This document shows, piece after piece, positions 18,431 to 43,316 of a DNA stretch of 43,316 bases (positions within the stretch are counted from its first letter, which is position 1; the number at the start of each line of letters is the position of its first letter). Origin of the DNA: Nevskia sp. (GTDB lineage: Bacteria > Pseudomonadota > Gammaproteobacteria > Nevskiales > Nevskiaceae); assembly GCF_023266035.1 (NCBI RefSeq), contig NZ_JAHFRY010000008.1, positions 1 through 43,316 on the forward strand, given 5' to 3'. Made by a program: the position numbers and the translations under genes. A model generated the notes under the pieces. The model was given only the letters and a program-made list of their open reading frames with translations. It ran no database searches and was not told where the DNA came from.

Positions 18431-18447
18431 TTGCAGCGAGACTGCAA
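18431..18447. promoter_or_regulatory. Inverted repeat in the giant 1 / propeller divergent region
   Basis: TTGCAG-N5-CTGCAA lies in the roughly 290-bp region between the divergent starts at 18237 and 18529. The size and placement suit an operator or a transcription-start-proximal element. No regulator can be named and no clear -35/-10 pair was found nearby. Confidence 0.25.
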
Positions 18448-25200: not shown

Positions 25201-27851
25201 GGAATCGTGGTCACCGAGAACGTGCCCTGAACGCCGCCGATGGTCAGCGTCGCCGAGGTCGTCGTCGAATTGGTGAACGCGGCCAGCACCTGAACGGTGA
25301 TCGTGTCACCGACATTCGCGAAGCCGGACGCGCTGGTGTAGCCCTGACCATTCAGGCTGTACATGCCGCCGGAGATCGAGATGGCGGCAGGTGCATTGAT
25401 GCCGGTGACGGAGATGCTGTTGCTGGTCTGGGTGGATCCTGGCGCGGCGTTGGTGACCGGCGTGAAGCTGAAGGCATCCGGTGTGGTGTCGACGGCCGTG
25501 GCGACGGTGGTCACCGTGTAGCCGGCGCTGATACCGCCGACCGTCACCGTCACCGTGGTGCTAGTGCCGTTGGTGGCTGAGGCCGTCTGCCGCACTTTGA
25601 GCGTCTGGCCAGCGCTGATCGTGCCCGGCTGGTCGGTGTAGACGCCGTCGTTGATGCTGTAGCTGCCGCCGGCGGTGATCGACACCGGGCTGGCGCTGTT
25701 GATGCCGCTGATGGTCACCGCGTTGCTGGTCTGGATCGAGCTCAGCGGCGCATCGGTGACGGGCGTGAAGCTGAAGGCATCCGGGGTGGTGTCCGCGGCC
25801 TGGGTGGTGACGGCATAAGCAGCGCTGACGCCGCCGATGCTCAGCATCGCCGTGGTCGTGGTGCCATAGCTGGCCGAGGCGGTCTGCCGCACGGTGACGC
25901 TCTGGCCGACGGTGACCGTGCCGGCCAGGGTCGTGTAGGCGCCGCCGTTGATGTTGTAGCTGCCACCGGTGACGCTGATCGGGCTGGCGGCGTTGATGCC
26001 GGCAACGGTGATCGCGTTGCTGGTCTGCACGCTGTTCGGGGCGACGTCGGTCACCGGCGTGAAGCTGAACGGATCCGGGGTGGTGTCGCTGGCGGCATCG
26101 TCGTTGACGATGGTGCCCGTCGCCTGGGCGCGGCCGATCACGGCGCCGCCGGTCGGAGCGGTGAGATTGACGAAGAAGGTTTCGTCCGGTTCGACGACGG
26201 TGTCGCCGCGAATGCTGATGCTGGCGCTCTTGCTGGTTTCGCCCGGCGCAAACGTCAGGGTCAGGGCACCCCCGGTGTAGTCGCTGCCGCTGGTCGCGGT
26301 ACCGTTGGCGGTGGTGGCGCGGACGGTGACGGGGGTCGTGGCGGCCGGGCTCAGGGTGGCGGTGAAGGTGAGGGCCTTGGTACCGCTGTTGCCTTCGGTG
26401 GTCGAGGCGTCGCTGATGCTCAGGGTCGGACCGGCGAGGTCGTCGCTGACGATGGTGCCCACGCCTTGCGGGTCGGCCAGGCTGGCGCCGACCGGGTTGC
26501 TCAGGTTGACGAGGACGGTTTCGCTGGGCTCGACGACGGTGTCACCGAGCACCGCAACGGTGATCGTCTGGCTGGTGGTGCCGGCCGGGAAGCTCAAGCT
26601 GCCGCTGCCGGCGGTGTAGTCGCTGCCCGCCTGGGCGGTGCCGTCAGCGGTGGCGTAGTCGACCGTGACCAGCGTCGGGGCGGCACCGTTCAGGCTGACC
26701 GTGAACACCATGTTGGTGATGCCGCTATTGCCTTCGGCGATCGAGACGTCGTCGATCGACAAAGCAGGCAGCTGGGTGGTGACGTTGAACGGGGCGCTGA
26801 CGCCGCCGATGGTCAGGGTGGCCGTGGTGGTGGTGGCCAGACTGGTCGACGCGGTCTGCTGGATGCGGACGGTCTGGCCGGCCAGCACGGTGCCGGCGGC
26901 GGTCGTGTAGTCGCCGCTGTTGAGGCTGTAGCTACCGCCGACGATCGAGATCGGGCTGCCGGTGTTGATGCCGCTGACGGTGATCGCTTCGCTGGTCTGC
27001 ACGCTGCCGGCGGCCACACCGGTCAGGGCACCGAAGCTGAAGGCGTCCGGTGTCGTGTCGGCAGCCAGTGTCGTCACGGCATACGGGGCGCTGACGCCGC
27101 CGATGGTGACCGTTGCCGTGGTCGTGGTGCCGAAGCTCGCCGAGGCGGTCTGCTGCACGGTCACCGTCTGGCCCACCGTCACCGTGCCCGCTGCCGTCGT
27201 GTACGCCCCGCCGTTGAGGCTGTAGCTGCCACCCGCCACGCTGATCGGGCTCGCCGCATTGATCCCGCTCACCGTGATCGCGTTGCTCGTCTGCACGCTG
27301 CTCAGCCCAACGCCATTCGCCGCCGTGAAGCTGAACGCGTCCGGTGTCGTGTCCGTCACAACACCGTCGTCGTTGAGGATCGTCCCCACCGCCTGTGCAC
27401 GGCCAATCACCGCCCCACCCGTCGGACTCGACAGATTCACGTAAAACACTTCGTCAGCCTCCGAAACCGTGTCCCCGCGAATGCTGACAGCGCCAACCTT
27501 CGACGTCTGACCCGCCGTGAAAGTCACCGTCTGGCTGCCGCCGTTGTAGTCAGAACCGGTGATTGCCGTACCGTCTGCCGTCGTTGCCCGGACCGTCACG
27601 GTGCCTGTTGCAGCCGGCGACAAAGTGATCGTGAAATTCAGATTCTTGGTGCCGCTGTTGCCTTCGGTGATCGAGGCGTCGCTGATGCTCAAGGTCGGCG
27701 TGGTTTGAGCGACCGCCATTGACGGCCCACTCAGACCGGCGATCAGCAGGCAGGTCATCAACGTCCGAACTGCTGCAGTGGCGATCGAACCATGGAACGG
27801 GCGCGACGTTGCGCAGCCCAAAAGCGAAACTTTGGCGATGACTCGATTCAC
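22275..27851 (-). CDS. Giant exported repeat protein 2 with C-terminal esterase-like domain
   Basis: About 1858 residues from GTG 27851. This start has AGGAG at 27861-27865, 9 nt upstream, whereas the upstream frame to 27944 has no such site. ATG 27758 (MTCLLIAGLSGPSMAVAQ) is the other possibility and gives a more compact signal peptide. After the signal comes directly a Calx-beta domain (SITEGNSGTKNLNF), without the cysteine-containing domain of giants 1 and 3. Then follow two repeats, two Calx-beta domains, about ten further beta-sandwich repeats that diverge towards the C-terminus, and an alpha/beta-hydrolase (last about 260 residues). The hydrolase has FFGGAF, GTSSGG (Ser1713), HADEDT, GLGHDW and a cysteine pair. 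25367-27484 is identical to part of giant gene 1. Probably exported; substrate unknown. Confidence 0.85.
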   Translation of the reverse strand: MNRVIAKVSLLGCATSRPFHGSIATAAVRTLMTCLLIAGLSGPSMAVAQTTPTLSISDASITEGNSGTKNLNFTITLSPAATGTVTVRATTADGTAITGSDYNGGSQTVTFTAGQTSKVGAVSIRGDTVSEADEVFYVNLSSPTGGAVIGRAQAVGTILNDDGVVTDTTPDAFSFTAANGVGLSSVQTSNAITVSGINAASPISVAGGSYSLNGGAYTTAAGTVTVGQTVTVQQTASASFGTTTTATVTIGGVSAPYAVTTLAADTTPDAFSFGALTGVAAGSVQTSEAITVSGINTGSPISIVGGSYSLNSGDYTTAAGTVLAGQTVRIQQTASTSLATTTTATLTIGGVSAPFNVTTQLPALSIDDVSIAEGNSGITNMVFTVSLNGAAPTLVTVDYATADGTAQAGSDYTAGSGSLSFPAGTTSQTITVAVLGDTVVEPSETVLVNLSNPVGASLADPQGVGTIVSDDLAGPTLSISDASTTEGNSGTKALTFTATLSPAATTPVTVRATTANGTATSGSDYTGGALTLTFAPGETSKSASISIRGDTVVEPDETFFVNLTAPTGGAVIGRAQATGTIVNDDAASDTTPDPFSFTPVTDVAPNSVQTSNAITVAGINAASPISVTGGSYNINGGAYTTLAGTVTVGQSVTVRQTASASYGTTTTAMLSIGGVSAAYAVTTQAADTTPDAFSFTPVTDAPLSSIQTSNAVTISGINSASPVSITAGGSYSINDGVYTDQPGTISAGQTLKVRQTASATNGTSTTVTVTVGGISAGYTVTTVATAVDTTPDAFSFTPVTNAAPGSTQTSNSISVTGINAPAAISISGGMYSLNGQGYTSASGFANVGDTITVQVLAAFTNSTTTSATLTIGGVQGTFSVTTIPVANDTTPDPFSFTSVNNAPVNSLQTSNTITVSGINADTSIMVSGGEYNINNGPFGAASGVVRNGDLVSVRVTASAQNSTTTTATLTIGGVPGSFSVTTAAFVADTTPDAFSFTAATSVEVGSIQTSNAITVTGINTATPISVSGGSYRINKGSYTSAAGTVSSGQTVEVQQTASASYSTRTDAVLTVGTVSATYSVTTESYAPDAVPDPFEFPVSVTHGVPLNSSQVSWPLEVRGINIPSTISITGGQYNVNGGSYTTATGTVNALDVITVRLSASASFGTTTSAVLTIGGVSATFSVDTLLIDTKPDPFVFTPLFNVPLAGPRERTSNEVVVTGINAPAPISVDGGFYSIDSGPFVTTPGTVSTGSRVRVMDVARDEPGAASLVTLTIGGISAKFITVTAGGDTVPDVMIFDSLATGYPRLGVNSNPVTVTGIDAPVPITVSGGAYSINGGGYTSDLGVVVAGDVVRLAASPGPSNGDVTTVSVTVGTVVSTYTVTTQSPADDFPDVPRIPASLDVPLNSTITSEPIIVRGFNIPTSVRVGSGATYNINGGAYTNVTGTVRAEDVVRIRVVTDSRYARTASTTLYIGVVNSSWTVKTLDNPALPKPFALNFETIFNTGQVRPGTVQQSKPIVVAGFSTPPAISVVGGRYSVNDGPYTAVAGTVNNGDRVRVQFTAAMPFETTKGATLTIGTLSASFSVSTTRDPVAVTPTVMSGATTYTFNSAVTPVPLLVFVFNPAGWSPNDKRSAYIDFFGGAFLTGTAGNVGGRVQYWSNNQGMVAIAPDYRVTDRFGTFAWVAPTDARAVVKWVQENAAMLGIDPTRIVVHGTSSGGGAATWAAILDPPVTSDPASTPLFRPGALVLRSGVTDTSEESAISDGQRARFGDYANDIGGARHLDDKMPPTMIFHADEDTTFAQTVNVKMCSDILRFGRNCRFQNEPGLGHDWYREPANNAESQTIEVDFLTSIGILPSVKP
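25367..27484. repeat. 2118-bp identical direct repeat, copy B
   Basis: Counterpart of 14652-16769 in the same orientation and same codon phase. It starts (in coding direction) at the IRGDTVSEADEVFYV part of Calx-beta 1 and ends in repeat 5 after INAPAAISISG. Synonymous positions match too, unlike the flanking parts of the two genes, so the block was shared recently. Confidence 0.92.
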
Positions 27852-27860
27852 GAAGTGAAG

Positions 27861-27865
27861 CTCCT
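27861..27865 (-). promoter_or_regulatory. Ribosome-binding site deciding the giant 2 start
   Basis: AGGAG on the minus strand, 9 nt before GTG 27851. It is the best Shine-Dalgarno match in this leader and supports the non-ATG start. Confidence 0.6.
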
Positions 27866-28033
27866 GCAGGACATGAGGCGCTGATTGCCCCACTACGAAC
27901 GCGATGGTAAAGGACAGGTGAAATTGCAGGATCGGAATAGGCAATCTTGTCGCAAATACAAGAAAGCGCGATCGATTCAGCCGAAATCGGACAATAAGCT
28001 GCGCCTAAAGACCATTGCTTGATGTGCTGTCGA

Positions 28034-29340: not shown

Positions 29341-32300
29341 CTAAGGCCGGATCGCCGGCAACACGCCAACCTTGGTCAGGAACGCGGCGACATGGTCATC
29401 GTTGTCGCGCGTGGCGTTCGGCACCTCGCTGTAGCTGTGCGTGGCGCCGGCAACGTTGTGGAACTCGCAGACGTTCTGTCCCGCCAGCAAACGGTTGCAG
29501 AGCGAGATCGAGGTCGCTTCCGCCACCGTGACATCGCCGTCGCCGTGGTGAACGATGGTCGGCGGCATGCGCGCATCGAGTTGCAGCTGCGGAGACAGCG
29601 CCTCGGCATTGCTGCCGAAGCGATCCGGCCGGTAGCCGAACGGCTCTGTCGTATCGGAAACCGGGCTGGTCAGCGATACCGCCGCCGGCTGCATCAACGG
29701 CGCAGTCGCGGGATCGGAACCGACCGGCGTCTCGACGATCGCCTCCCACAAGGCGAGATGCCCGCCAGCCGATGAGCCGCTGACGACGATTCGAGTCGGA
29801 TCGACGCCCAGTTCCGCTGCATGGTCCTGAACCCAGCGCAGCGCCGCCCGGCCGTCGGATACCGATTCCAGCGGCGTGGTGCCGAAGCGCTGGTTGGTGC
29901 GGTAATCCATCGCGATGCCGACCATGCCCTGGCCTCGGGCCCAGATCATCCGGTTGCTGTTCGGCTCGCCGCTGACCCAGCCGCCACCGAAGAAATGGAT
30001 GAAGGCCGGGCGTCGGTCCGAGGAGCGCCAAGTCGTGGGCTTGTACACAAAGGCCCTTAATGGCACTGCCGGAAGACCGGTGTTGCTGTAGATGAAAGTC
30101 TCGGCACCGTTGAGCGCCGCCGGCGTGTTCTTGACCGCATCCGACGTGGTCGTGGCGTTCATCGACGTACTGGTGTTGCCGACCTTGATCGTCGCGCTGG
30201 TGGTGGTGTCGAACGCCGACGACAGGACCAAGTTCACGGTCAGCTTGTCGCCGTTCGCGGCGGTACCCGCGGCTGCTGTGTAAGGCCGGCCATTGAGGCT
30301 GTAGGTACCGCCGGTGATCGAGATCGGAACCGGCGCCTGGATATTGCTCAAGGTCACCGTGTCGCTGGTCGCGACCGTGCCCGGCAGCGAGTAGGTCAGC
30401 GAGATCGGATTGCCGGGCGACAGCGCCCGCTTCAGCTTGAACGGCGTGGGATGAATCGAGGGGCTGGGCTTGGTGGTGACCGTGAAGCTGCCGTTGACGC
30501 CGCCTATGGTCAGCGTCGCCGAGGCACTGGCGCCAGGATTGCCGGACGCCGTCACCTGCATCCTGACCACGTCTCCGGCGAGCACCGTCCGCGTCGTCGT
30601 CGTGAATGCGCCGCCATTGATGCTGTAGCTGCCGCCGGAAACGGAAATCGCCGTGGCTCGGCTGTTGCCGATCACCGAAATCTCGGCACTGGTCTGCTCG
30701 CTGCGCGGCTCCACGTCCGTCAGCGAAACGAATCCAAACGGATCGGGAATGATGTCGGACGGGGCGTCGGCACTGAGGCGGTAGGCGCTGCTGATGCGGC
30801 CGACGGTGAGCGTCACCGTCGCGCTGTTGCCGACGGTGGCTGGTGCGATCACCTGAACCGCCAGCCGGTCGCCGTTGTTGACGGTGCCGGCAGCGTCCGT
30901 GAACGGCGCGCCATTGCGGCTGTAAGTGCCACCGGTGACCGAGACCGGCGCCGCCGCATTGATGCCGCTGATCACCACCGTATCGCTGTTCTGCGCCAGG
31001 GCCGGGAAGCCGGTGGCAGGGCCGCTCAGCGTGAACGAATCCGGCGTCGTATCGAGATTGCCGGTCGAGACGCTGAAGTCGGCGCTGATGCCGCCGATGG
31101 TCAGGCGAGCGGTGTTGACGGCGCCATTGACCGTTGGCGCCACGACTCGCAGCTGCACCCGATCGCCGCTGAGCACAGCACCCGGATCGGTGGTGTAGCG
31201 CCCACCGTTGATGCTGTAGCGCCCCCCCGTGATCGAGACCGGCGCCGCGGCATTGATGCCGCTGACGGTGATCGTGTTGCTGGTCTGCTCGCTGCCAGGG
31301 GCGGCGCCCGAGATCGCGGCGAAACTGAACGGATCCGGTGTCGTATCCACGCCCTGGGTGGTCACTGCATAACTGCCGCTGACGCCGCCGATGGTCAGCG
31401 TCGCCGTGGTTGTGGTCGCTGCGCTGCTTGACGCCGTCTGCCGCAGGCGCAGGCTCTGGCCGGAAACGACGCTGCCGTTGCTGGTCGTGAACGGCCCGCC
31501 GTCGATGCTGTAGCTGCCGCCGACCACCGAAACCGGGCTGGCGGCGTTGATGCCGGCCACGGTGATGGCGGCGCTGGTCTGCACGCTGCCGGGTGCCGCG
31601 TCCCTGGTTGGCGCGAAGCTGAAGCTGTCCGGCACCGGGTCGACGGCGGCACCGCCGTCGTCATTGACGACGGTGATCAGCGCCTGGCCACGGCCCAGCA
31701 AGGCACCGCCGCCCGGGCTGCTCAGGTTGATGAAAAAGGTCTCGTCAGCTTCGACGGCGGTATCGCCACGGACAACGATGCCGAGGTTCTTGCTGGTTTC
31801 CCCGGCCGCGAAGCTCAAGGTCTGCGAAACGCTGTTGTAGTCCGATCCGCTGACCGCCGCGCCGTTGGCACTGGTCACCTTGACCGTCACCTTCTTGCTC
31901 GCTGCCGGGCTCAGCGTCACCGGAACCACCAGCGTCGTGGTGCCGGTATTGCCTTCGACGATCGAGGCATCGGCGATCGACAGCGTCGGGCCGAGCGTAG
32001 TCACCCGATAGTCGGCGCTGACGCCACCGATGGTCAGGGTTGCCGTGGTCGTGCGGTTGCCGCTGGTCGCGGCCGTCTGCCGCAACCGCACGGTCTGGCC
32101 GGCGGTGACGGTCTGCTTGCTGGTCGTATAGCTGCCGTTGTTGATGCTGAAGCTGCCGCCGGCCACGGAGATCGGGCTGGCGGCATTGATGCCGGAGACG
32201 GTGATCGCTTCGCTGGTCTGCACGCTGCCGGGTTCGGCCCCGGTCACAGCCGGGAAACTGAAGCTGTCCGGCGTGGTGTCGATCGCCGCGCCATCATCAT

Positions 32301-33912
32301 TGACGATGGTGCCGGTCGCCCGACCTCGGCCGATCGTGGCGCCGCCGTTGGCGCTGCCGAGATCGACGAAGAAGGTTTCGTCGGGTTCGGCCACGGTATC
32401 GCCGCGAATCTTGAAGGACACCACTTTCGAGGTTTCGCCCGGCGAGAAGCTCAGGCTGGGGCCGCCGCCGTCATAGTCCGAACCGCTCTTCGCCGTGCCG
32501 TTGGCGGTCTCGGCACGAACCGTCACCCGCGAGCTGGCCGCCGGGCTGAGCGTCACCGTGAAGATCAGGGTCTTGGTGCCGCTGTTGCCTTCGGTGATCG
32601 AGGCATCGGCGATGCTGAATGTCGGTGTCGCTACCGCCTCAGTCTGGGCCGGAGTCTTGCCGGTCGCAGCATCGGCGGCGACGTCGTGACTGGAGCTGGG
32701 CTCAGCGGTGACGACGCTGAACACTGCAAGCTGGCCATCGATATCGAGGTAACTGCGAGCAAGCCGCGCAGCCGCCACCGTCCGCAAGCGCACCGCATCG
32801 CCAGGCTGGACCCTGCCGCTCTGCGCCGTAAAAGCCTGGCCGTTGATGCTGTAGCTACCGTTGGTCACGGCGATAGTCGATGGCCCGACCAGCTTGCCGA
32901 GGGTGACTGCGCGCGAGGTCTGAGTACTGCCAGCCTTGGCGCTAATGACACTGCCGAAATCGTAGGCTGCCCGGCTGATCGTGCAACCCGAGGGCAGCCG
33001 GCCCGATGCGCGGTCTTCCGCCGGCCAGCTCAGGCTGTCGTAAGGACACAGATATTCGATCTCGGTGACCACCGTCTTCCAGCCGCTCTCCGGTTGCAGC
33101 AGCACGATCGAACTGCGGTTGGTCGCGGACAGCCGATCGCTGCGGACATTGAGCAGCGCAGCTTCGGTCGACAACGGATCGCGGATCACCAGCAGGCCGC
33201 GGCCGCGGCCGTCATCGGCGGCGAACCAGCGACCGTTCCAGTCGCTCTGTTCGCAGTCGTAGCTGCAGGTCCGGGCATCGACTGGATTGACGGCGGTGTT
33301 CGCCGCGTTCGGCACCAGCACGGTACGGTAGACGTTCAGCGGCAGCGCCGGCACATAGGCGCGCAGGCCGCGGCCGCTGAACATCGGCGTGGCGCCGGTG
33401 AACTGGAAGCTGCGCATGATCCGCAGCATGTCGCCCTTGCCAGTAACGCCGGGGAAAGTGCGGTAATCGGTCTGCGCAGTGACATCCGAACTGCCCGGAC
33501 AACCCGCTGTCGAGCCGATCGAGCGCAGGCTGCTGCCGCTGGTATCGCTCACTGTGGCAATGGCGCCTGGCCCTATCGCCAGCGGTGCCGTACCTTCCGG
33601 CTCGCCGTAGGCCTGACCGAAAAACAGCCGGGCATCACCGCAGGCGCGGCCACTGTTGGCGACGAAGTCGGCGATCGTTACGCCGGTGCTGTCGACCCAC
33701 TGCAGCCGGTCCAGACGATCGGCGTTGCCGGCCGGCAGTCCGCCCGATGAATCGCCGAATTCGGCTTCGAGATTCGATCCCGACAGCAGGTGGCCGTTAC
33801 CGGCTTCGGCGTCCGAAACCAGCCCGCCAGCCATCAGAACGACTACACAAGCGGTAGGCACCCGCCATCTGGCGACCAGTCGCCCCCTCGCCTTTCGGCT
33901 TGTCGCTGCCAT
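29341..33912 (-). CDS. Giant exported repeat protein 3 with C-terminal esterase-like domain
   Basis: 1523 residues from ATG 33912, which has AGGGAG (33921-33926) 8 nt upstream. A Sec signal (about 1-38, VPTACVVVLMAGGLVSDAEA) is followed by the same unrecognised domain as in giant 1 (about 40-320: LLSGSNLEAEFGDSS, ACGDARLFFGQAYGEPEG, YDCEQSDWNGRWF). Next come a degenerate repeat, Calx-beta, one repeat, a second Calx-beta, five more beta-sandwich repeats, and the alpha/beta-hydrolase (from about 1260). The hydrolase carries FFGGGW, GSSAGG (Ser1381), HHGDGDV, ATHSY and a cysteine pair. It is the shortest of the three and close to giant 1 at both ends, as if giant 1 had gained repeats or this one lost them. 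It lies downstream of the DcaP-like porin on the same strand but 353 bp away, so is likely transcribed separately. Confidence 0.85.
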   Translation of the reverse strand: MAATSRKARGRLVARWRVPTACVVVLMAGGLVSDAEAGNGHLLSGSNLEAEFGDSSGGLPAGNADRLDRLQWVDSTGVTIADFVANSGRACGDARLFFGQAYGEPEGTAPLAIGPGAIATVSDTSGSSLRSIGSTAGCPGSSDVTAQTDYRTFPGVTGKGDMLRIMRSFQFTGATPMFSGRGLRAYVPALPLNVYRTVLVPNAANTAVNPVDARTCSYDCEQSDWNGRWFAADDGRGRGLLVIRDPLSTEAALLNVRSDRLSATNRSSIVLLQPESGWKTVVTEIEYLCPYDSLSWPAEDRASGRLPSGCTISRAAYDFGSVISAKAGSTQTSRAVTLGKLVGPSTIAVTNGSYSINGQAFTAQSGRVQPGDAVRLRTVAAARLARSYLDIDGQLAVFSVVTAEPSSSHDVAADAATGKTPAQTEAVATPTFSIADASITEGNSGTKTLIFTVTLSPAASSRVTVRAETANGTAKSGSDYDGGGPSLSFSPGETSKVVSFKIRGDTVAEPDETFFVDLGSANGGATIGRGRATGTIVNDDGAAIDTTPDSFSFPAVTGAEPGSVQTSEAITVSGINAASPISVAGGSFSINNGSYTTSKQTVTAGQTVRLRQTAATSGNRTTTATLTIGGVSADYRVTTLGPTLSIADASIVEGNTGTTTLVVPVTLSPAASKKVTVKVTSANGAAVSGSDYNSVSQTLSFAAGETSKNLGIVVRGDTAVEADETFFINLSSPGGGALLGRGQALITVVNDDGGAAVDPVPDSFSFAPTRDAAPGSVQTSAAITVAGINAASPVSVVGGSYSIDGGPFTTSNGSVVSGQSLRLRQTASSSAATTTTATLTIGGVSGSYAVTTQGVDTTPDPFSFAAISGAAPGSEQTSNTITVSGINAAAPVSITGGRYSINGGRYTTDPGAVLSGDRVQLRVVAPTVNGAVNTARLTIGGISADFSVSTGNLDTTPDSFTLSGPATGFPALAQNSDTVVISGINAAAPVSVTGGTYSRNGAPFTDAAGTVNNGDRLAVQVIAPATVGNSATVTLTVGRISSAYRLSADAPSDIIPDPFGFVSLTDVEPRSEQTSAEISVIGNSRATAISVSGGSYSINGGAFTTTTRTVLAGDVVRMQVTASGNPGASASATLTIGGVNGSFTVTTKPSPSIHPTPFKLKRALSPGNPISLTYSLPGTVATSDTVTLSNIQAPVPISITGGTYSLNGRPYTAAAGTAANGDKLTVNLVLSSAFDTTTSATIKVGNTSTSMNATTTSDAVKNTPAALNGAETFIYSNTGLPAVPLRAFVYKPTTWRSSDRRPAFIHFFGGGWVSGEPNSNRMIWARGQGMVGIAMDYRTNQRFGTTPLESVSDGRAALRWVQDHAAELGVDPTRIVVSGSSAGGHLALWEAIVETPVGSDPATAPLMQPAAVSLTSPVSDTTEPFGYRPDRFGSNAEALSPQLQLDARMPPTIVHHGDGDVTVAEATSISLCNRLLAGQNVCEFHNVAGATHSYSEVPNATRDNDDHVAAFLTKVGVLPAIRP

Positions 33913-34265
33913 CGATACCACTCCCTAACCCGCCCCTTCGAGCATTGCGGCGTCTTGCGCGCCGCGATTGCCTTGAAGTCCCCCGAATCCGAACTGCTCG
34001 GTGCCCCATGCCGGCGACTCCGTACCGGCTCCCCGCAGCGCCGCCGTGGCAGCACTGCTTGTAGTTAGGGAAGAGTCGCCTGTTTCAGGAACATAAACAT
34101 TCCCGATGGGCAACAATCGCCCGCCGATTCTGTTGGCCGTATCACTGCAAGCTGGAATGCGGCGGCACAGACCGGCCGCGGGCGAATCGGAAACAAGGGA
34201 ATGCCACCGTGATGCCAGGGTTCAGGGGGCTGGCTTGCTGGCAGCGATAAGCCAGGTGCAAAGCC
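33913..34265. other. Leader region of giant gene 3 / porin downstream region
   Basis: About 350 bp without a credible gene. It holds the ribosome-binding site of giant 3 at 33921-33926 and a 7-bp inverted repeat CTGGCTT/AAGCCAG (34230-34236, 34249-34255) just after the porin stop codon, without a T-tract. A promoter for giant 3 is expected here, but I could not place one convincingly. Confidence 0.45.
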
Positions 34266-35660
34266 TCAGAAGTTGTACCGCGCCGAAAACTGCAGGCGGC
34301 TCAGGTCGCCAGACAGATTGCCGACAGTGTCACGCCGCGCGTAACGGTATTCGGCGCCGAAGGTGATCTTCGGGATCGGCGAATACAGCAGGTTGGCGGT
34401 GACGCTGCGGACGTTGCGGGAAACGCCGGGGCCGAAGATCGAGCCTTCGTCGATCTGCCCGGTGTTGGCGTGCAGGGCGGACAGCGCCAGGTTCGAGCGC
34501 CATTGTTCGTTCCAGGGGTGACGCCAGGCGACGAAGCCGTTGTAGACCTCGACGGTGCGCAACTTGCCGCTGGCGTCGACCACGGCATCGCCGACCGTGT
34601 TCAGCGCCAGGTAGCGGCCGAAGCCGTCGCCGCCGCTGAAGGTGAAACGCAGATCGTCGTGGCCCCAGAGCGGAATCTTGCCGGCGAAGCTCAGGCCGTA
34701 GCCGACCGAGGTGTCGTTGCCACCGACCACGGTGCCGCGATCGGCGATCTGGCGGACCACGCCGGACAAGGTGTAGTCGCCCCAGGCCGCCGTCTTCAGC
34801 GTGTAGCGCCAGACCAGGTCCGGCACCGTGTTGTCGTCGGTCACCGTGAAGGCATTGCCGCCGAGGGTGGCGACTGTCGATTCGCTGTTTTCGAGCGCGA
34901 TGGCCAGCGGGCCATAGGTGTAACGGATCATCGGCTGACGCGAGAACACCGTGCCTTCGGATGGCCAGTTGACCAGATCGACGATGTCCGGCAGCGCCAC
35001 CATGTTCTGCAAGGTGGACCAGTCCTGGCCGATGCGGAAGTTGTCGAAATCCAGATAGCCGAGGCGGAACGCCGGGTTGTACGGATTGGTCACCGCTTCG
35101 TTCGGCGCCCCGGCGATGCCCTGGCCGAGCTGGCCGCTGATGAAATCGAACTCGGCATTGATTGCCACCTTGTGGCCGTACATCAGGCCCGAGCCGCGCA
35201 GGTACAGCCGGGTTTCCTTGGCGTGCAGATCGGTATAGGTGCGGGCGTTCTCGGCGCCGGTCGCGGCTACCGGAATCGAGTTCGGGATGTAGGCATCGCG
35301 GCCCAGGCTCTGCGCCACCGCGCCATCGCTGTAGCGGGAAGTGATGAAGTCGCTCTTGATGTAGCCGCCCCAGGCCAGCTTGAAGTCGCCGCCATTGGTG
35401 ACGGCGGCCGGCGCTGGTACTGGTGCTGCCGCAGCAACGACTGGCGCAACAGCTGCGACGGCTGCCGGCGCGGCGACCTCGGCCGCAGGCTGCGCCGCCT
35501 TGGCGGAGAGCTGCTGTTCCAGCGCCTCGATGCGCCGCTTCAGATCCTGGATCACTGCGGCGGTGTCTTCATCCACCGGGGCGGCGAACACAGGCAGCGT
35601 CGCCATGCCGAATCCGGCGGCGCACAGGGCGGCGGCAAAGCGGCTGCGGGCAGGCATCAT
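34266..35660 (-). CDS. DcaP-like outer-membrane porin
   Basis: About 464 residues from ATG 35660, which has AGGAG 7 nt upstream; upstream in-frame ATGs lack a site. The signal peptide (about 1-28) is followed by a coiled-coil stretch (IQDLKRRIEALEQQLSAK), an Ala/Pro-rich linker, and then an aromatic-rich beta-barrel (WGGYIKSDF..., RLYLRGSG, GYLDFDNFRIGQDWSTLQN) ending in Phe (SARYNF), as outer-membrane proteins do. DcaP of Acinetobacter forms trimers with an N-terminal coiled coil and takes up dicarboxylic acids and other anionic compounds. Being divergent from crbR next to an acetate uptake module suggests an organic-acid or acetate entry role. Substrate specificity is inferred. Confidence 0.88.
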   Translation of the reverse strand: MMPARSRFAAALCAAGFGMATLPVFAAPVDEDTAAVIQDLKRRIEALEQQLSAKAAQPAAEVAAPAAVAAVAPVVAAAAPVPAPAAVTNGGDFKLAWGGYIKSDFITSRYSDGAVAQSLGRDAYIPNSIPVAATGAENARTYTDLHAKETRLYLRGSGLMYGHKVAINAEFDFISGQLGQGIAGAPNEAVTNPYNPAFRLGYLDFDNFRIGQDWSTLQNMVALPDIVDLVNWPSEGTVFSRQPMIRYTYGPLAIALENSESTVATLGGNAFTVTDDNTVPDLVWRYTLKTAAWGDYTLSGVVRQIADRGTVVGGNDTSVGYGLSFAGKIPLWGHDDLRFTFSGGDGFGRYLALNTVGDAVVDASGKLRTVEVYNGFVAWRHPWNEQWRSNLALSALHANTGQIDEGSIFGPGVSRNVRSVTANLLYSPIPKITFGAEYRYARRDTVGNLSGDLSRLQFSARYNF

Positions 35661-35762
35661 CTCCTCACTCCTCGTCATCGTTCGTTGCCCGGACAGGTGA
35701 TCCGGGAGCGGCATCGAAGGCCGCAGACGCAGAGTGGCGATCAGAGGAAGGCGCGACCATTC

Positions 35763-35792
35763 ACCTTAGGTCGTATCGCGACCAAGGTCGTA
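35763..35792. promoter_or_regulatory. Two candidate CrbR-binding sites between porin and crbR
   Basis: Site one ends in TAGGTCGTA (35763-35775) and site two reads GACCAAGGTCGTA (35780-35792). They are direct repeats 17 bp apart. The same motif recurs twice at 40117-40162 in the crbS/yjcH region. They lie about 100-130 bp upstream of the porin start and 44-73 bp upstream of crbR. Confidence 0.5.
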
Positions 35793-35835: not shown

Positions 35836-36528
35836 ATGTATCGCTTGCTCATCGCTGATGACCATCCGCTGTTCCGCGCCGCGCTGACCGCCGCCGTGGC
35901 CGATGCCGTGCCCGAAGCGATCGTCGAAGCCACCGCGTCGCTGATCGAACTGCTGGCCAAGCTCGATGCCCAGCCGGATTGCGATCTGGTGCTGCTCGAT
36001 CTGCGGATGCCCGGCAGCAGCGGCTTTTCCTCGCTGATCCAGCTGCGCGGCCTGCGCCCGGACCTGCCGGTGGCGATCGTCTCCGGCGAGGAAAACCCGC
36101 TGGTGATCCGCCGCGCGATCGATTTCGGCGCCTGCGGCTACATCCCGAAATCGGCGTCGCTGGCCGTCATCGGTGTAGCCGTGCGGGCGATGCTCGATGG
36201 CAACGAATGGCTGCCGGAAGGCCTGGCCGATGGCGTCGATCAGGATGCCGCCGAACAGGCGCTGACCCGGCAGATCGCCACGCTGACGCCGCAGCAGTTC
36301 AAGGTGCTGATGGCACTCGCCGATGGCCGCCTGAACAAGCAGATCGGCTACGAGCTGAGCATCACCGAAGCGACCGTGAAGGCCCATGTCACCGCCGTGC
36401 TGCGCAAGCTCGGCTTGTATCGGCGCACCCAGGCGGCGCTGCTGGCAAGACGCCTGCTCGATGCCAGCGCCGGCAGCCTGACGCCGCCGATGGACGAGCT
36501 TCAGTCCGACGTTGCCGACGAAGACTAA
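35836..36528 (+). CDS. crbR: LuxR/NarL-family response regulator, CrbR-like
   Basis: A 230-residue cytoplasmic transcription activator. The receiver domain (about 1-115) has the acidic pair in LIADDHPLF, the phosphoacceptor Asp55 in LLDLRMPG, and the Lys in YIPKSAS. The LuxR-type helix-turn-helix is at about 160-215 (LTPQQFKVLMALADG, NKQIGYELSITEATVKAHVTAVLRKLGLYRRTQA). ATG 35836 is preferred because GAGG lies 5 nt upstream and it puts Asp55 at the usual position; ATG 35803 would add 11 residues. In Vibrio cholerae CrbR, partnered by CrbS, activates acs. Adjacency to an SLC5-type kinase and the actP/acs genes makes the same role likely here. Its stop overlaps that of crbS by 4 bp in convergent orientation. 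Confidence 0.88.
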   Translation: MYRLLIADDHPLFRAALTAAVADAVPEAIVEATASLIELLAKLDAQPDCDLVLLDLRMPGSSGFSSLIQLRGLRPDLPVAIVSGEENPLVIRRAIDFGACGYIPKSASLAVIGVAVRAMLDGNEWLPEGLADGVDQDAAEQALTRQIATLTPQQFKVLMALADGRLNKQIGYELSITEATVKAHVTAVLRKLGLYRRTQAALLARRLLDASAGSLTPPMDELQSDVADED

Positions 36529-39500
36529 GCGTCGCCGTCCGCTTCGATGACATCCGCACTCTGAATGCGGATCATCCGACTCATCAAGGCCCTGAGCGCC
36601 GCAGGCTTCACCGGCTTCGGCAGCCGCGCATGGCCGGCGGCGCTGGCGGCGTTGCGCGCCGCTTCGGTGGGATCGGCGGTCAGCACGATCGCCGGCACGG
36701 CAACACCCCAGCGCCGGCGCAGCTCGGCCATCACCGCGATGCCGCTGGCGCCTTCGCCGAGATGGAAATCGATCAGCGCCAGATCGGGCACTTCCGCACC
36801 CGGCCCGAAGCAGGCGTAAGCCTCGCTGGCATTGCGGGCGACGATCACCCGACAGCCCCAGCGCGTCAGCAGCGCACCGAGCGCATCGAGCGTCGACTCC
36901 TCGTTGTCGAGACAGAACACCAGCCGGCCATGCAGGCGATCGGTCGAACGGGTCACCGGTGCCGGTCGCAGCGGCGCGATCGAACTGCGATCACCGAACG
37001 GCACCACGATCGAGAAGCAGCTGCCGCGGCCGACCGTCGACCGCAGCCTCAGCCGGTGGTGCAGCAGCTTCGAAAGACGATCGGCGATCGACAGCCCGAG
37101 CCCCAGGCCCTGATCGAAATCCTGGCCGGCTTCGAGCCGGCGAAACTCCTCGAAGATTTCCGGCTGGCGCCCGGCCGGAATGCCCGGCCCGGTATCCCAG
37201 ACGCCGATCTCGATGCCGCCGGGCAAGCGCCGGCAGCCGAGCAGCACGCAGCCGCTGCGGGTGTAGCGCACGGCGTTGGACAGGAAGTTCTGCAGGATGC
37301 GGCGCAGCAGCGAAGGATCGGTCTCGACGATCGCCGACGAGGCCACGTAGCGAAACTCCAGACCACGCGCCTGGGCCAACGCCGAGAACTCGTTGGCCAG
37401 CGGCGCCAGCACCCGATCGACCGGGAAATGCTCGCGGCGCACCGGCTGGGCGGCGGCATCGAGCCGGGAAATATCGAGCAACGCGCCGATCAGGTTCTCG
37501 GCCGCATGCAGCGAGCTTTCCACCTGGCCGACGATGCGTGCGGTCTCGGCCGGCACCGCATCGCGGTCGATCGACGTCACGAACAAGCGCGCGGCGTTCA
37601 GCGGCTGGACCAGATCGTGGGTGACGGTGGCCAGAAAGCGGGACTTCGCCCGGTTGGCGCGCTCGGCCACGCCGCGCGCTTCCTCGAGCGCGGCGGTGCG
37701 TTCCGAGACTCGCTCCTCCAATTGCTCGTTGACCACTTCCAGCGCCTGCTGCGCCTGCTTGTAGGCGGTGACATCCGAATAGCTGGTGACATAGCCGCCG
37801 CCGGACATCGGGCTGCCGCGCACTTCGATGACCCGGCCATCCGGCATCAGGCGCTCATGGCTGTTCGGGGTGCCGGCGCGCAGGTGAGCCAGTCGCCGCT
37901 CGACCTGGGACTCGACATCGCCAGGCCCGAGCAGACCCCTCTCGGCGTTGTAGCGGAACACCTCGGCGATCGGCCGGCCGACCCGGATCAGGTCGTCCGG
38001 GTAGTCGAGCATTTCCAGATAGCGGCGGTTCCAGCCGACCAGGCAGAGATCCTTGTCGACCACCGACACGCCCTGCGACAGATGCTCCAGCGAAGCGCGC
38101 AGCAGTTCGCGGTTGAACTGGATCTCGTGCGCGGTTTCGTCGAGCAGGCTGATCACGTCTTCCAGCTGCATGTCGCGGCCGCCGAGTGCCGAGCCGAGCA
38201 CCAGCCGTGCGCTCGACGCGCCGAGCGCACCGGACAGCAGATGCTCGATGTGGCGCGCCTGCTCGGACGACACCCGGTCGTCCGGCTTCGGCTCCGGCCG
38301 ACCGAGCCGGCGGGCGTGCAGTTCCAGTTCGCTGCGCGCGCGTTCGGCCCCGAAGAAGCGTTCCAGCAGTGCCACGAGATCGCCGACCGTAGCGGCGATC
38401 TTGGTTGCAGGTGCGCGCGCCGCGCGTCCGGCGGACGGTTCTTCGAGGAACCGCCCGGCCTGCAGGCGTTCGCGCAGACCGGGCTTGAACAGCAGCGGCG
38501 TCAGCAGATAGGCCAGCGTGTTGCCGCCGAGACTCCATAGCGTGCCGTGGGTGATGTCGTCGAGCCCGGTCAGCCCGAACAGCGCCTGCGGCCGCAGCCA
38601 GCCGATGCCGAGCGGGCCGTCGCTCAACAGGCTGCTGTCGCCACCGGCCAGCAGCGCCGGCAGCAGCAAGGTGTACAGCCACAGACCGAAACCGATGCTC
38701 AAGCCGGCCAGCGCACCGGCGTGACTGCCGCCGCGCCAGAGCACGCCGCCGACGATCGCCGGCGCAAACTGGGCCACAGCGGCGAATGACAAGAGGCCGA
38801 TCGCGGTCAGCGAGCCGGGCCCGCTGTAGATCCGGTAATACAGGTAGGCGGCGGCAATGATCGCGACGATCGCCGCGCGGCGGATGTTCTTCAGCAGGCC
38901 GCTCAAGTCACTGCGTTCGGCGAGCCGGAAGCGCCGCGAACGCAGCAGCACCGGTAGCACCAGCTCGTTGGAAATCATCGTCGACAGCGCGATGGTTTCG
39001 ACGATGACCATGCTGGTGGCCGCCGAGAAGCCGCCGAGATAGGCGATCAGCGCCAGCCAGCCCTGCCCCTCGGACAAGGGCAGCGCCAGCATGTAGGTAT
39101 CGCCCGAAGCATCGGCCGACAGACGATCGAGCCCGGCGCTGGCGATCGGCAGCACGAACACGCTGATCGCCAGCAGGAACAGCGGAAACACCCAGCGCGC
39201 GCGTTTGAGATCGCGGGTGTCGGCGTTCTCCACCACCGTGACGTGGAACTGCCGCGGAAGACACAGCACCGCTGCCGCCGCGAGCAGGGTCTGGGCGACG
39301 AAGCCGGCCTGCCAGCGGCCATCGCGCTCGTGCGCCTGAGTGCCGAGGCGGGTCAGCGCGTGGCTCCAGGCATCACCGAAGCCGTCGTACAGGTGGTAGC
39401 AGACGAACAGGCCGACGGCGAGAAAGGCCAGCAGCTTGACCGTCGACTCGAAGGCGATGGCCAGCACCATGCCGTGATGGTTTTCGCTGGCAACCACCTG

Positions 39501-40037
39501 GCGCGTGCCGAACAGGATCGCGAACGCGCCCAGCAGCACGGCGACGAACAGCGCGCCGTTGTCGAACAGATGGTCATCGGCACCGACTTCGCCCTGCGAG
39601 TGCGCCAGCAGCTCGAAACCGAAAGCCACCGCTTTCAGCTGCAGCGCGATGTACGGCACCACGCCAAGCACCGCGACGGCGGTGACGAACATCGCCAGCC
39701 GCTGGTTGCGGCCGTAGCGGGCGCCGATGAAGTCGGCAATGGACGTGATGTTGTAGCGCTTGCTGATCCGGATCAGCCGCTCCAGCAGGCCGCCGGCAAA
39801 CAGGAACACCAGCATCGGCCCGAGATAGATCGGCAGGAAATCCCAGCCGCTGGTCGCGGCCCGGCCGACCGCGCCGTAGAACGTCCAGGAGGTGGCGTAG
39901 ACGCCAAGGGCGAGGCTGTAGGTCCAGGGCTTGCGCGAGGAGCCGGCCACTGCCCGACGATCACCGTGCGCCGCAATCGCGAACAGCACCGCGACATAGA
40001 TCGCCGAGATCAGGAATAGCGACCAGACCTCGAGCAT
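36525..40037 (-). CDS. crbS: SLC5-type hybrid sensor histidine kinase, CrbS-like
   Basis: 1170 residues in the inner membrane. Parts in order: a sodium:solute symporter-like domain with about 13 helices (1-490); a STAC-like linker (about 550-640); PAS (about 650-770); a coiled coil; HisKA with the phosphorylated His807 in VTHDLVQPLNAAR; HATPase with NFLSNAVRYT (about 921), DTGPGIP and GLGLGLSI; and a C-terminal receiver with Asp1090 in LIDFHLGEG. This architecture is that of CrbS/MxtR kinases controlling acetate use. No Hpt domain is present, so the receiver may modulate rather than relay. The start ATG 40037 has AGGGG 8 nt upstream. It is divergent from yjcH-actP across a 201-bp region carrying two candidate operators, and convergent with crbR. 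Whether the symporter part transports is unknown. Confidence 0.92.
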   Translation of the reverse strand: MLEVWSLFLISAIYVAVLFAIAAHGDRRAVAGSSRKPWTYSLALGVYATSWTFYGAVGRAATSGWDFLPIYLGPMLVFLFAGGLLERLIRISKRYNITSIADFIGARYGRNQRLAMFVTAVAVLGVVPYIALQLKAVAFGFELLAHSQGEVGADDHLFDNGALFVAVLLGAFAILFGTRQVVASENHHGMVLAIAFESTVKLLAFLAVGLFVCYHLYDGFGDAWSHALTRLGTQAHERDGRWQAGFVAQTLLAAAAVLCLPRQFHVTVVENADTRDLKRARWVFPLFLLAISVFVLPIASAGLDRLSADASGDTYMLALPLSEGQGWLALIAYLGGFSAATSMVIVETIALSTMISNELVLPVLLRSRRFRLAERSDLSGLLKNIRRAAIVAIIAAAYLYYRIYSGPGSLTAIGLLSFAAVAQFAPAIVGGVLWRGGSHAGALAGLSIGFGLWLYTLLLPALLAGGDSSLLSDGPLGIGWLRPQALFGLTGLDDITHGTLWSLGGNTLAYLLTPLLFKPGLRERLQAGRFLEEPSAGRAARAPATKIAATVGDLVALLERFFGAERARSELELHARRLGRPEPKPDDRVSSEQARHIEHLLSGALGASSARLVLGSALGGRDMQLEDVISLLDETAHEIQFNRELLRASLEHLSQGVSVVDKDLCLVGWNRRYLEMLDYPDDLIRVGRPIAEVFRYNAERGLLGPGDVESQVERRLAHLRAGTPNSHERLMPDGRVIEVRGSPMSGGGYVTSYSDVTAYKQAQQALEVVNEQLEERVSERTAALEEARGVAERANRAKSRFLATVTHDLVQPLNAARLFVTSIDRDAVPAETARIVGQVESSLHAAENLIGALLDISRLDAAAQPVRREHFPVDRVLAPLANEFSALAQARGLEFRYVASSAIVETDPSLLRRILQNFLSNAVRYTRSGCVLLGCRRLPGGIEIGVWDTGPGIPAGRQPEIFEEFRRLEAGQDFDQGLGLGLSIADRLSKLLHHRLRLRSTVGRGSCFSIVVPFGDRSSIAPLRPAPVTRSTDRLHGRLVFCLDNEESTLDALGALLTRWGCRVIVARNASEAYACFGPGAEVPDLALIDFHLGEGASGIAVMAELRRRWGVAVPAIVLTADPTEAARNAASAAGHARLPKPVKPAALRALMSRMIRIQSADVIEADGDA

Positions 40038-40116
40038 CCCGGCGTCCCCTGCCGGACGGCGGCCGGCTGCTGAGGCTCAGCATAGATCACGAGGCGATCT
40101 CCGCCGTCGGGCCTGA

Positions 40117-40162
40117 GACCAAAGTCGCAGACCCGGGCCACCCCGCTTAGACCAACGTCGCA
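40117..40162. promoter_or_regulatory. Two candidate CrbR-binding sites upstream of yjcH-actP
   Basis: GACCAAAGTCGCA (40117-40129) and GACCAACGTCGCA (40150-40162) differ at one base and are 33 bp apart, about three helical turns, on the same face of the DNA. They lie 77-122 bp upstream of yjcH, a normal distance for an activator, and 80-125 bp upstream of crbS on the other strand. Confidence 0.55.
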
Positions 40163-40238
40163 TGGAGTGCGGACCCCATCGCCGATAGGCTCAGCCATCA
40201 GCATCGCCGTACCCATGACGCAGGTGTTAGGAGCATCC

Positions 40239-40595
40239 ATGACAACAAAACAGCATTCCGGCGACGGCAGCACGGCGTCGACCGAGGTCCACGTGGCGCC
40301 GGAGATCCTGCGCATCCTTGAAAGTCCGGCGTTCACCGAGCTGCGCGCACGCCGCGGCCGCTACTCGGCGATCCTGACCACGCTGATGCTGCTGATCTAC
40401 TACGGCTTCATCCTGGCGATCGCCTTTGCCCCGCAATGGCTGGCGATCCGCATCGACGGCGTCATCACGCTGGGCATTCCGCTGGGGCTGGGCGTCATCC
40501 TGTCGGCGATCGTGCTGACCGGCATCTACGTGCGCCGCGCCAACGGCGAGTTCGATGCACTGACGGTCAAGGCTGTCCGGAGCGCCCAGGGATGA
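40239..40595 (+). CDS. yjcH: DUF485 family membrane protein YjcH
   Basis: 118 residues with two membrane helices (about 45-65 and 75-98). The DUF485 pattern is visible: [21 protein letters not shown] followed by [15 protein letters not shown] and [12 protein letters not shown]. The start ATG 40239 has AGGAG 5 nt upstream; the longer frame starting at 40167 overlaps the regulatory sites and is unlikely. YjcH is regularly co-transcribed with the acetate permease ActP and is probably its small partner, though its biochemical role is not settled. Its stop codon overlaps the actP start as ATGA, implying translational coupling. Confidence 0.9.
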
Positions 40596-42259
40596 ATCCG
40601 ATGAACCGCATGATTCTCAAGACGCTGACCGCCACGGCCCTGCTCGCACCGCTCGCCAGCTTCGCCGCCGCCCTCGAAGGCCAGGCGGAGAAGCAGCCGC
40701 TGAACCTCACCGCCATCCTGATGTTCGTCGCCTTCGTGGCGCTGACGCTGGGCATCACCTACTGGGCGAGCCGGCGCACCCAGTCGCGCGCTGATTTCTA
40801 CACCGCAGGCGGCGGCATCACCGGCTTCCAGAACGGGCTCGCCATCGCTGGCGACTACATGAGCGCGGCTTCGTTCCTCGGCATTTCGGCGCTGGTGTTC
40901 GGCTCCGGCTTCGATGGCCTGATCTATTCGATCGGCTTCCTGGTCGGCTGGCCGGTGATCATGTTCCTGATCGCCGAGCGGCTGCGCAATCTCGGCAAGT
41001 TCACCTTCGCCGATGTCGCCAGCTACCGGCTGGACCAGACCTCGATCCGCATCCTCGCCGCCGCCGGCACCTTGACCACGGTGGCGTTCTATCTGATCGC
41101 GCAGATGGTCGGCGCCGGTCAGTTGATCAAGCTGCTGTTCGGGCTGGACTACAACATCGCGGTGGTGCTGGTCGGCGTGCTGATGATCGTCTACGTCACC
41201 TTCGGCGGCATGCTGGCGACCACCTGGGTGCAGATCATCAAGGCGATGCTGCTGCTCGGTGGCGCCAGCTTCATGGCCTTCATGGTCATGCGCCACGTCG
41301 GCTTCTCGGTGGAAGCGCTGTTCGAGCAGGCGATCGCCGTGCACAAGGACGGTCAGGCGATCATGGCGCCGGGCAAGCTGGTCAAGGACCCGGTATCGGC
41401 GATCTCGCTCGGCCTGGCGCTGATGTTCGGCACCGCCGGCCTGCCGCACATCCTGATGCGCTTCTTCACCGTGAAGAACGCCGCCGAAGCCCGCAAGAGC
41501 GTGTTCTACGCGACCGGCTTCATCGGCTACTTCTACATCCTGACCTTCATCATCGGCTTCGGCGCCATCGTGCTGGTCGGCACCGACACCTTCTATCTCG
41601 ATGACAAGGGCCTGCGCGGCGGCACCAACATGGCGGCGATCCACCTCGCTCATGCGGTGGGCGGCGATGTCTTCCTCGGCTTCATCTCGGCAGTCGCCTT
41701 CGCCACCATCCTCGCGGTCGTCGCCGGCCTGACGCTCTCCGGGGCCACGGCGGTCTCGCATGACCTGTACGCCCATGTGCTGCGCAAGGGCAAGGTCAAC
41801 GACAAGGATGAAATCCGCGTCTCGAAGTTCGCCACCATCGGCCTCGGCATTCTGGCGATCGTCCTCGGCGTCGTCTTCGAAAAGCAGAACGTCGCCTTCA
41901 TGGTCGGCCTGGCTTTCGCGATCGCGGCCAGCGCCAACTTCCCGATCCTGCTGCTGTCGATCGTCTGGCGCGGGCTCACCACCCGTGGTGCACTGCTCGG
42001 CGGCGGGCTGGGCCTTGTGTCAGCCGTGACACTGACCGTCCTCGGCCCGGCCGTCTGGGTGAAGGTGCTCGGCCATGCCACGCCGATCTTCCCTTACGAC
42101 GCACCGGCGCTGTTTTCGATGACCCTGGCCTTCCTCGGCTGCTGGTTCGGTTCGGTGACCGATCGCAGCGCGAGGGCCAAGATCGAGTCGGCACGCTATA
42201 TCGAGCAGCTGGTTCGGGCCGAAACCGGCTACGGCGCCACCGGCGCGTCGAATCACTGA
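40592..42259 (+). CDS. actP: Acetate permease ActP (sodium:solute symporter family)
   Basis: A 555-residue cation-coupled symporter for acetate, glyoxylate and related short monocarboxylates in the inner membrane. It begins with a cleavable-looking signal (about 1-27, [19 protein letters not shown]), as in E. coli ActP, followed by about 13 helices. SLC5 signatures seen are [33 protein letters not shown] (about 65-97), [17 protein letters not shown] and [29 protein letters not shown]. The start ATG 40592 overlaps the yjcH stop. A weak hairpin follows the gene, so some read-through into acs is possible. Likely controlled by CrbS/CrbR through the sites at 40117-40162. Confidence 0.95.
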
Positions 42260-42457: not shown

Positions 42458-43316
42458 ATGAGCAGTGACAACTTCCAATCCGTGCTGACCGAGACCCGGG
42501 TGTTCCCGCCCTCGGCCGAGTTCGCCGCCGCCGCCCGTGTCAACGCCGCGAAGATGGCCGAGCTGCGCGCCGCCGCGGCTGCCGATTTCACCGGCTTCTG
42601 GGGCGCTTACGCCAGGAGCGAGCTGAGCTGGGCCACGCCGTTCAGGACCGTGCTCGATGACAGCGCCGCACCCAACTACCGCTGGTTCCACGATGGCACC
42701 CTGAACGCCTCGTACAACTGCCTGGACCGCCATCTGGCGACCAAGGGCGACAAGATCGCCATCCGCTACGAAGGCGAGAAGGGCGACACCCGCAACTACA
42801 GCTACCGGGAACTGCACGCCGAAGTCTGCAAGCTGGCCAATGCGATCAAGGCCCGTGGCATCGTCAAGGGCGATCGCGTGGTGCTGTATCTGCCGCACTC
42901 GCCGGAAGCGGTGATCGCGATGCAGGCCTGCGCCCGCATCGGCGCCATCCACTCGGTGGTGTTCGGCGGCTTCTCGGCGACTGCGCTGCGTGATCGCATC
43001 GAAGACACCGGCGCCAAGCTGGTCATCACCGCCGACGGCAACCAGCGCGGCGGCAACATCGTCGATCTGAAGAAGGCCTGCGATGAAGCGCTGGCGCTCG
43101 GCTGCCCAACCGTGCAAGGCGTGATCGTCGCCAAGCGCACCGGCCACGCGATCACCATGAAGGACGGTCGCGACGCCTGGTGGCATGAAGCCACGGCGAA
43201 AGTTGCCGCGGATTGCGAGCCGGTGAACGTCGACGCCGAACACCCGCTGTTCCTGCTCTACACATCCGGCTCCACCGGCAAGCCCAAGGGCATCCAGCAT
43301 TGCACCGGCGGCTATC
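42458..43316 (+). CDS. acs: Acetyl-CoA synthetase, N-terminal part (cut by window edge)
   Basis: 286 codons are visible of an enzyme normally about 650 residues long. It converts acetate, ATP and CoA to acetyl-CoA through acetyl-AMP in the cytoplasm. Family features are FWGAYARSELSW and YNCLDRHL near the N-terminus, GDRVVLYLPHSPEAVIAMQACARIGAIHSVVFGGFSA (about 145-180), and the AMP-binding loop YTSGSTGKPKG at about 268-278. The catalytic lysine and C-terminal domain lie outside. The start ATG 42458 has GAGG 7 nt upstream. Downstream of actP in the same direction, it completes the uptake and activation route for acetate. No copy of the candidate CrbR motif was seen in its immediate leader. Confidence 0.96.
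   Translation, partial: MSSDNFQSVLTETRVFPPSAEFAAAARVNAAKMAELRAAAAADFTGFWGAYARSELSWATPFRTVLDDSAAPNYRWFHDGTLNASYNCLDRHLATKGDKIAIRYEGEKGDTRNYSYRELHAEVCKLANAIKARGIVKGDRVVLYLPHSPEAVIAMQACARIGAIHSVVFGGFSATALRDRIEDTGAKLVITADGNQRGGNIVDLKKACDEALALGCPTVQGVIVAKRTGHAITMKDGRDAWWHEATAKVAADCEPVNVDAEHPLFLLYTSGSTGKPKGIQHCTGGY

Follow-up and report, generated by a model that had tools for sequence, protein, structure and literature searches.

Paired ACTU-type inverted repeats as predicted CrbR sites upstream of a DcaP porin gene and yjcH-actP in an acetate module of Nevskia sp.

Dimers of phosphorylated CrbR very probably bind to four 16-bp inverted repeats in the acetate module of Nevskia sp. The proximal site of each pair would recruit RNA polymerase, a second site in a helically defined position would add to this, and acetate would turn on yjcH-actP together with a porin. 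The repeats were located in the window, by which we mean the whole stretch of 43,316 nucleotides that was analysed, and they occupy two divergent regions flanking crbR and crbS, as the preliminary description had it: one lies between dcaP and crbR, the other between crbS and yjcH. Gene order is dcaP (leftward) and crbR (rightward), then crbS (leftward) and yjcH-actP (rightward), followed by acs. The relevant features are the following.

34266-35660, minus strand: gene of a DcaP-family outer-membrane porin (PF19577, 58.1 bits, cut-off 27)
35731-35736, minus strand: predicted dcaP -10 hexamer CACTCT at a distance of 23 bp to site 1 (all 13 aligned sequences share A-11, C-8 and T-7)
35760-35775, minus strand: ACTU site 1, degenerate 7-2-7 inverted repeat, porin-proximal (matrix rank 4; 8 of 23 invariant columns)
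35777-35792, plus strand: ACTU site 2, crbR-proximal, at a distance of 17 bp to site 1 (matrix rank 3; 9 of 23 invariant columns)
35836-36528, plus strand: crbR, response regulator with receiver and GerE (NarL/LuxR-type) domains (from domains; NarL 1a04 best among solved chains)
36525-40037, minus strand: crbS, hybrid kinase with a predicted SLC5-fold N-terminus, PAS_7, HisKA, HATPase and receiver (from domains and Foldseek)
40114-40129, no strand assigned: ACTU site 3, the distal one of the two before yjcH (matrix rank 1)
40147-40162, plus strand: ACTU site 4, proximal site of yjcH-actP (matrix rank 2; 10 of 25 invariant columns)
40186-40191, plus strand: predicted yjcH -10 hexamer TAGGCT (all 8 aligned sequences share T-12, A-11 and T-7)
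40239-40595, plus strand: yjcH (DUF485; PF04341)
40592-42259, plus strand: actP, cation/acetate symporter (NF006903, 946 bits, cut-off 750)
42545-43316, plus strand: N-terminal part of acs, which runs on past the window end (TIGR02188)

The acetate module and its surroundings

CrbR is matched best by far by the ErdR family model NF041830, although its 230.6 bits stay below the exception-level cut-off of 390 for this model, and NarL (1a04) is its best match among solved structures. Its recognition helix EATxKAHVTA is common to the P. putida relative. The sensor CrbS carries PAS, HisKA, HATPase and receiver domains. Its N-terminal 580 residues presumably adopt an SLC5 fold: the predicted structure, which has helices at residues 551-577, finds SiaT, NIS and SGLT as best Foldseek matches with E-values down to 2e-8. 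A profile comparison to SLC5 gave E 5e-5 with 14 sequences but 0.086 with 8, and a Pfam search returned no SLC5 domain for this part of the protein.

The acs gene starts about 280 bp past actP. TIGR02188 matches C56:42545-44415 in two pieces, each under the whole-protein cut-off. A frameshift was considered and rejected: a run of 10 N, a scaffold gap at about C56:43317, lies at the window end inside acs, and the apparent change of frame is due to this gap at 43316. None of the twelve best matrix positions of the window (see below) falls between actP and acs, and acs is therefore probably served by the yjcH promoter.

Three further observations concern the surroundings of the module and the remaining genome. 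A direct repeat of 2.2 kb, 99% identical, is found at 14635-16802 and 25350-27517, 10715 bp apart, within two minus-strand reading frames of very large size (10930-18447 and 22275-27944); we interpret it as a recent duplication or gene conversion. Beside the acetate module, a minus-strand reading frame of 1526 aa with repeated segments extends over 29341-33921, and we take its C-terminal part to be esterase-like. Elsewhere in the genome, a second CrbR-like regulator (L151, contig C173, 2413-7126) lies beside a hybrid kinase that matches CrbS from the PAS domain on only, and the neighbouring gene presumably codes for a dicarboxylate symporter.

The repeats as candidate CrbR sites

The exact 13-mer GACCAAnGTCGyA occurs three times in the window, always on the plus strand (35780-35792, 40117-40129 and 40150-40162). 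It is thus confirmed that the exact motif is found nowhere else in the window and that both copies at 40117-40162, 33 bp apart (40117/40150), are exact. The description of two related copies at 35763-35792 is right in the distance of 17 bp (35763/35780) and in the exact copy at 35780. The stretch 35763-35775, however, is only a half-match and has the right half GGTCGTA alone in common with the 13-mer. It is part of the 16-bp inverted repeat TTCACCTTAGGTCGTA at 35760-35775, a degenerate but conserved site with only one good half.

Across the 4.5-Mb draft genome the exact 13-mer was counted 4 times against 2 for the reversed control, and the fourth copy (C189:13147), which lies inside an open reading frame, was taken as chance. 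With one mismatch the 13-mer is not enriched genome-wide (43 matches against 61 for the control); with two mismatches the window holds 9 where 6.2 are expected. Because the loose 13-mer occurs at random frequency, the case rests on clustering, full-length symmetry and conservation. A 16-bp scoring matrix built from 74 sites found outside the genus, which replaced a 17-bp symmetrised matrix that was out of register, ranked the four claimed sites as the top four of all window positions, with 18.6, 18.1, 16.2 and 15.8 bits and the next position at 13.1. In 200 simulated windows, 12 positions in total reached at least 15.8 bits (maximum 19.3). Lone sites may therefore arise by chance, four of them within two short regions hardly so. 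By counts alone, the preliminary description would thus have been refuted on its own terms (random frequency genome-wide), but the 16-bp form of the motif comes out first in the window.

Conservation in related acs/actP loci, likewise suggested as a check, was found, in that the sites stand as conserved islands in diverged intergenic regions. The porin/crbR region contains 23 invariant columns in an alignment of 13 genomes, 17 of them in the two 16-mers, 3 in the dcaP -10 hexamer and 3 elsewhere. The yjcH/crbS region has 25 in an alignment of 8 genomes, with 10 in the yjcH-proximal site and 3 (T-12, A-11 and T-7) in the yjcH -10 hexamer. Several of the aligned genomes belong to one genus, and these columns are for that reason not independent. 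Within the genus the paired motif accompanies a close crbR (at least 87%) in 6 of 7 genomes and is found in none of the 11 without one; motif and gene are linked. The yjcH pair at 33-34 bp is present in 6 of the 18 genomes of the genus, its distal site is absent in L158 and L161, and 10 of 32 regions upstream of crbS are without a site over 9 bits.

All four repeats match an element that has been in print since 2017, and the assignment to CrbR in the preliminary description, although correct as a guess, is therefore not new. Sepulveda and Lupas named this inverted repeat ACTU. As far as the accessible part of their report goes, it occupies -52 to -36 relative to the mapped acs start of P. fluorescens and was detected in 91 out of 112 promoters from 31 species (PMC5715377). 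Four point mutations in ACTU abolished induction, which makes the motif necessary for activation by CrbR (same source); the reporter work on ACTU and CrbR, again according to what is accessible of it, was done in Pseudomonas and E. coli. The regulator is the same as ErdR, which in the accessible account shifts such promoters of P. putida in EMSA experiments and does not shift the acsA-I promoter that is without the motif (PMC8402216). In P. aeruginosa ErdR reportedly shifted 13 of 15 promoters, and most of the ErdR targets tested went up after deletion of erdR (PMC9927353, in part); repression at some sites is therefore possible.

The sites of the window share with ACTU the imperfect inverted repeat GACnnnnGTC, i.e. 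the GAC-N4-GTC core, with flanking arms of the TAC/GAA type, and they have actP, acs and crbS/crbR as neighbours. The position also agrees, since the proximal site before yjcH is centred at -43.5 from the predicted start, comparable to about -44 for ACTU. Together with the adjoining CrbR- and CrbS-type genes and the conserved islands, this identity with the published element argues for the predicted role as the CrbR recognition sequence. The difference to the published system is that the accessible part of PMC5715377 gives a single site for each promoter and names no porin among the targets (the word porin occurs once, in the reference list), whereas here the sites are paired and helically phased, with one pair at a DcaP porin gene. 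Neither helical phasing of paired CrbR sites nor a porin target was found in the open-access literature searched. We accordingly regard two points of this contribution as new, namely that the pairing is quantised by the helix and that the porin is a conserved predicted target.

Promoter distance and spacing of the sites

Which genes are served was deduced from the distance between a site and a -10 hexamer. Intergenic regions with a site over 9 bits, near copies included, were searched for NAnnnT starting 22-24 bp after the 16-mer. Such a hexamer was present towards dcaP in 28 of 29 regions (L103 being the exception) and towards yjcH in 8 of 8, compared to a background of 12.6% for any position in the same regions. 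For other genes divergent from crbS the count was 10 of 14, and for acs 6 of 15. Towards crbR no hexamer was present at this distance in any of the 14 regions, and towards crbS 3 of 22 had one, which is not above background. Hand-picked deduplicated sets gave 14/14 and, for Xanthomonadales promoters, 32/32 towards dcaP, 10/10 away from crbS (some of these without a detected yjcH), and 0/11 each towards crbR and crbS. From this fixed distance the dcaP porin and yjcH-actP follow as predicted targets, and control of crbR and crbS does not. Of the four units that CrbR had been proposed to control together, the porin and yjcH-actP are thus well supported as candidates for activation, as judged from sequence; control of crbR itself and of the kinase from these sites is unsupported, which is lack of evidence and not proof of absence.

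Two related observations deserve mention. At the acs side of Xanthomonadales promoters (L174-L234), the distance between the ACTU site and the -10 hexamer takes two values that differ by about 11 bp: 12 of 43 lie at 38-40 bp in the deduplicated set, with others around 49-51, and 6 of 15 lie at 38-40 in a second count. This is perhaps another shift by one turn. In a relative without yjcH beside crbS (L162:9647-11368), the ACTU pair precedes a transporter-like gene, then acs; the gene resembles, as we presume, a major-facilitator transporter and may be an acetate carrier that was swapped in and is controlled in the same way.

Relative to the predicted dcaP start at 35724 (minus strand), sites 1 and 2 are centred at about -43.5 and -60.5; relative to the predicted yjcH start at 40198 (plus strand), sites 4 and 3 are centred at about -43.5 and -76.5. 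Whole genomes were scanned for two ACTU-like sites 14-44 bp apart. One family yielded such pairs in 67 of 198 genomes and one order in 33 of 150, each with a single control match and with nine matching genomes common to both sets. For the class, 6 of 369 genomes matched at 4 control matches, and only the gene neighbourhood separated true from chance pairs; a class-wide scan at wider spacings (1 of 369 genomes, 7 control matches) gave chance only. Of 57 loci taken from the family and order scans, 56 adjoin acs and/or a dcaP relative. Upstream of acs, 12 loci of one family (L212, L213, L216-L222 and L224-L226) have an ACTU pair 17 bp apart and no detected dcaP relative.

At the porin-divergent promoters of relatives the spacings mostly fall into classes that follow each other by one helical turn. 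Among the distinct genomes with a match, 83 of 94 have their sites 17, 18, 28, 29, 39 or 40 bp apart, and the classes 17/18, 28/29 and 39/40 account for 49 of 60 genus-by-distance events and for 39 of 44 genera. None of 5000 random sets was as periodic. The scan of 45-75 bp in the same family added 12 of 198 genomes (1 control match), eight of them at 49 or 50 bp, and even with the spacings 45, 48 and 65 kept in neither a uniform nor a jittered null (5000 sets each) was as periodic. Spacings one turn apart were observed within single genera (28/29 and 39/40 in g333; 28, 39 and 50 in g305; 28 and 39 in g184), which speaks for selection. Out-of-phase spacings of 15, 23, 24, 25, 33, 36, 37 and 41/42 bp also occur, and in some Xanthomonadaceae the two sites are far apart (50, 72, 92, 92, 96 and 129 bp), which indicates that pairing is not essential everywhere. 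The yjcH pair has 33-34 bp in this genus and one more, and a pair upstream of crbS has 43-44 bp in a third; these are about half a turn off the porin series, on a basis of three genera only.

A model of paired CrbR sites and its alternatives

We assume that the 16-bp repeats (consensus TTCGACC-WW-GGTCGAA, the 7-2-7 layout of NarL) bind dimers of phosphorylated CrbR. The proximal site at yjcH and dcaP, about 44 bp before the predicted start, would bring in RNA polymerase. A second dimer at a helically fixed distance may then contribute additional activation or cooperativity, its partner being presumably either the alpha subunit of the polymerase or the other dimer. Across 32 promoters the phase is slightly tighter from site to site (R 0.77) than from the distal site to the dcaP -10 hexamer (R 0.70), a difference that does not separate the two possibilities and is a weak hint at contact between dimers rather than with polymerase. 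CrbS would sense acetate and signal to CrbR, and yjcH-actP, probably with acs, would be induced together with the DcaP porin. The wider proposition that CrbR operates as a phase-locked two-dimer unit, with porin/acs or porin/crbR promoters of Nevskiales and Xanthomonadales holding two ACTU sites at 17 bp plus multiples of about 10.7 bp, is in our estimation evenly balanced between true and false.

Two known systems are comparable. In E. coli, NarL uses 7-2-7 sites at -44.5 and -77.5 to activate ogt according to the accessible part of PMC7419079, i.e. with the same 33 bp between sites as predicted here for yjcH. NarL is a nitrate regulator, though, and the porin pairs of CrbR (17, 28, 39 and 49 bp) are about half a turn away from this arrangement. 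CRP is unrelated in sequence. At class I promoters it is active when placed at -61.5, -71.5/-72.5 and -81.5/-82.5, whereas at -66.5 or -76.5 it has hardly any effect, as given in the accessible part of PMC6301791, and the distal sites of the porin pairs have similarly phased predicted positions of about -60.5, -71.5, -82.5 and -92.5.

The strongest competitor of this model is that all four transcription units are controlled through the motif, which would make crbR and crbS autoregulated from the same sites. The sites do sit between divergent genes, a weak ACTU match was reported for crbS of P. fluorescens (q 0.6; PMC5715377, in part), and the hexamer TATGCT towards crbS is kept in the five genomes of the genus that were compared. 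Its distance from the site, however, varies (27, 29, 29, 29 and 39 bp, counted by hand within the genus). In 3 of 11 crbR-side sequences a -10-like hexamer stands at 28 bp to the site, but another offset also scores 3. In view of the -10 counts for crbR and crbS given above we consider this extension doubtful. It is improbable, to a higher degree, that the 11-bp steps reflect shared ancestry and the crowding of two promoters instead of function. The species are related, the sites abut at 17 bp and the periodicity statistics were calculated without a species tree; against this stand the spacings about one turn apart inside g333, g305 and g184 and the persistence of periodicity in values taken one per genus.

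Another regulator with a similar motif could bind in place of CrbR, the paralogue on C173 being the obvious candidate as it is 53% identical to CrbR, and its helix-turn-helix resembles that of the window in 40 of 61 residues, compared to 39 of 61 for the P. putida regulator. Its recognition helix differs (ENTVKVHITA instead of EATVKAHVTA), however, no ACTU site occurs at its own locus (16 kb with a top score of 6.2 bits), and the co-occurrence of the paired motif with a close crbR in the genus also disfavours it, though motif and gene are linked; we judge it very unlikely to be the binding protein. Finally, the missing enrichment of the one-mismatch 13-mer would suit the view that short strings of a GC-rich genome resemble each other by chance. 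That reading is refuted by conservation, namely by the invariance across genera and the fixed -10 distance, besides the held-out ranking and the neighbourhood of acs and/or dcaP, and its probability is negligible.

If CrbR indeed acts as outlined, two dimers, each bound to a fixed face of the helix, switch on the porin and the acetate genes, with the tandem pair at yjcH half a turn away, and entry through the outer membrane, uptake across the inner membrane and activation of acetate form a single helically coded regulon. The helix-quantised spacing of the sites would offer a direct and cheap test of how activators of the NarL family work together, be it with one another or with RNA polymerase. 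In many Gammaproteobacteria a known acetate regulator appears to have a specific porin under its control, which turns a hunch from a single genome into a comparative rule.
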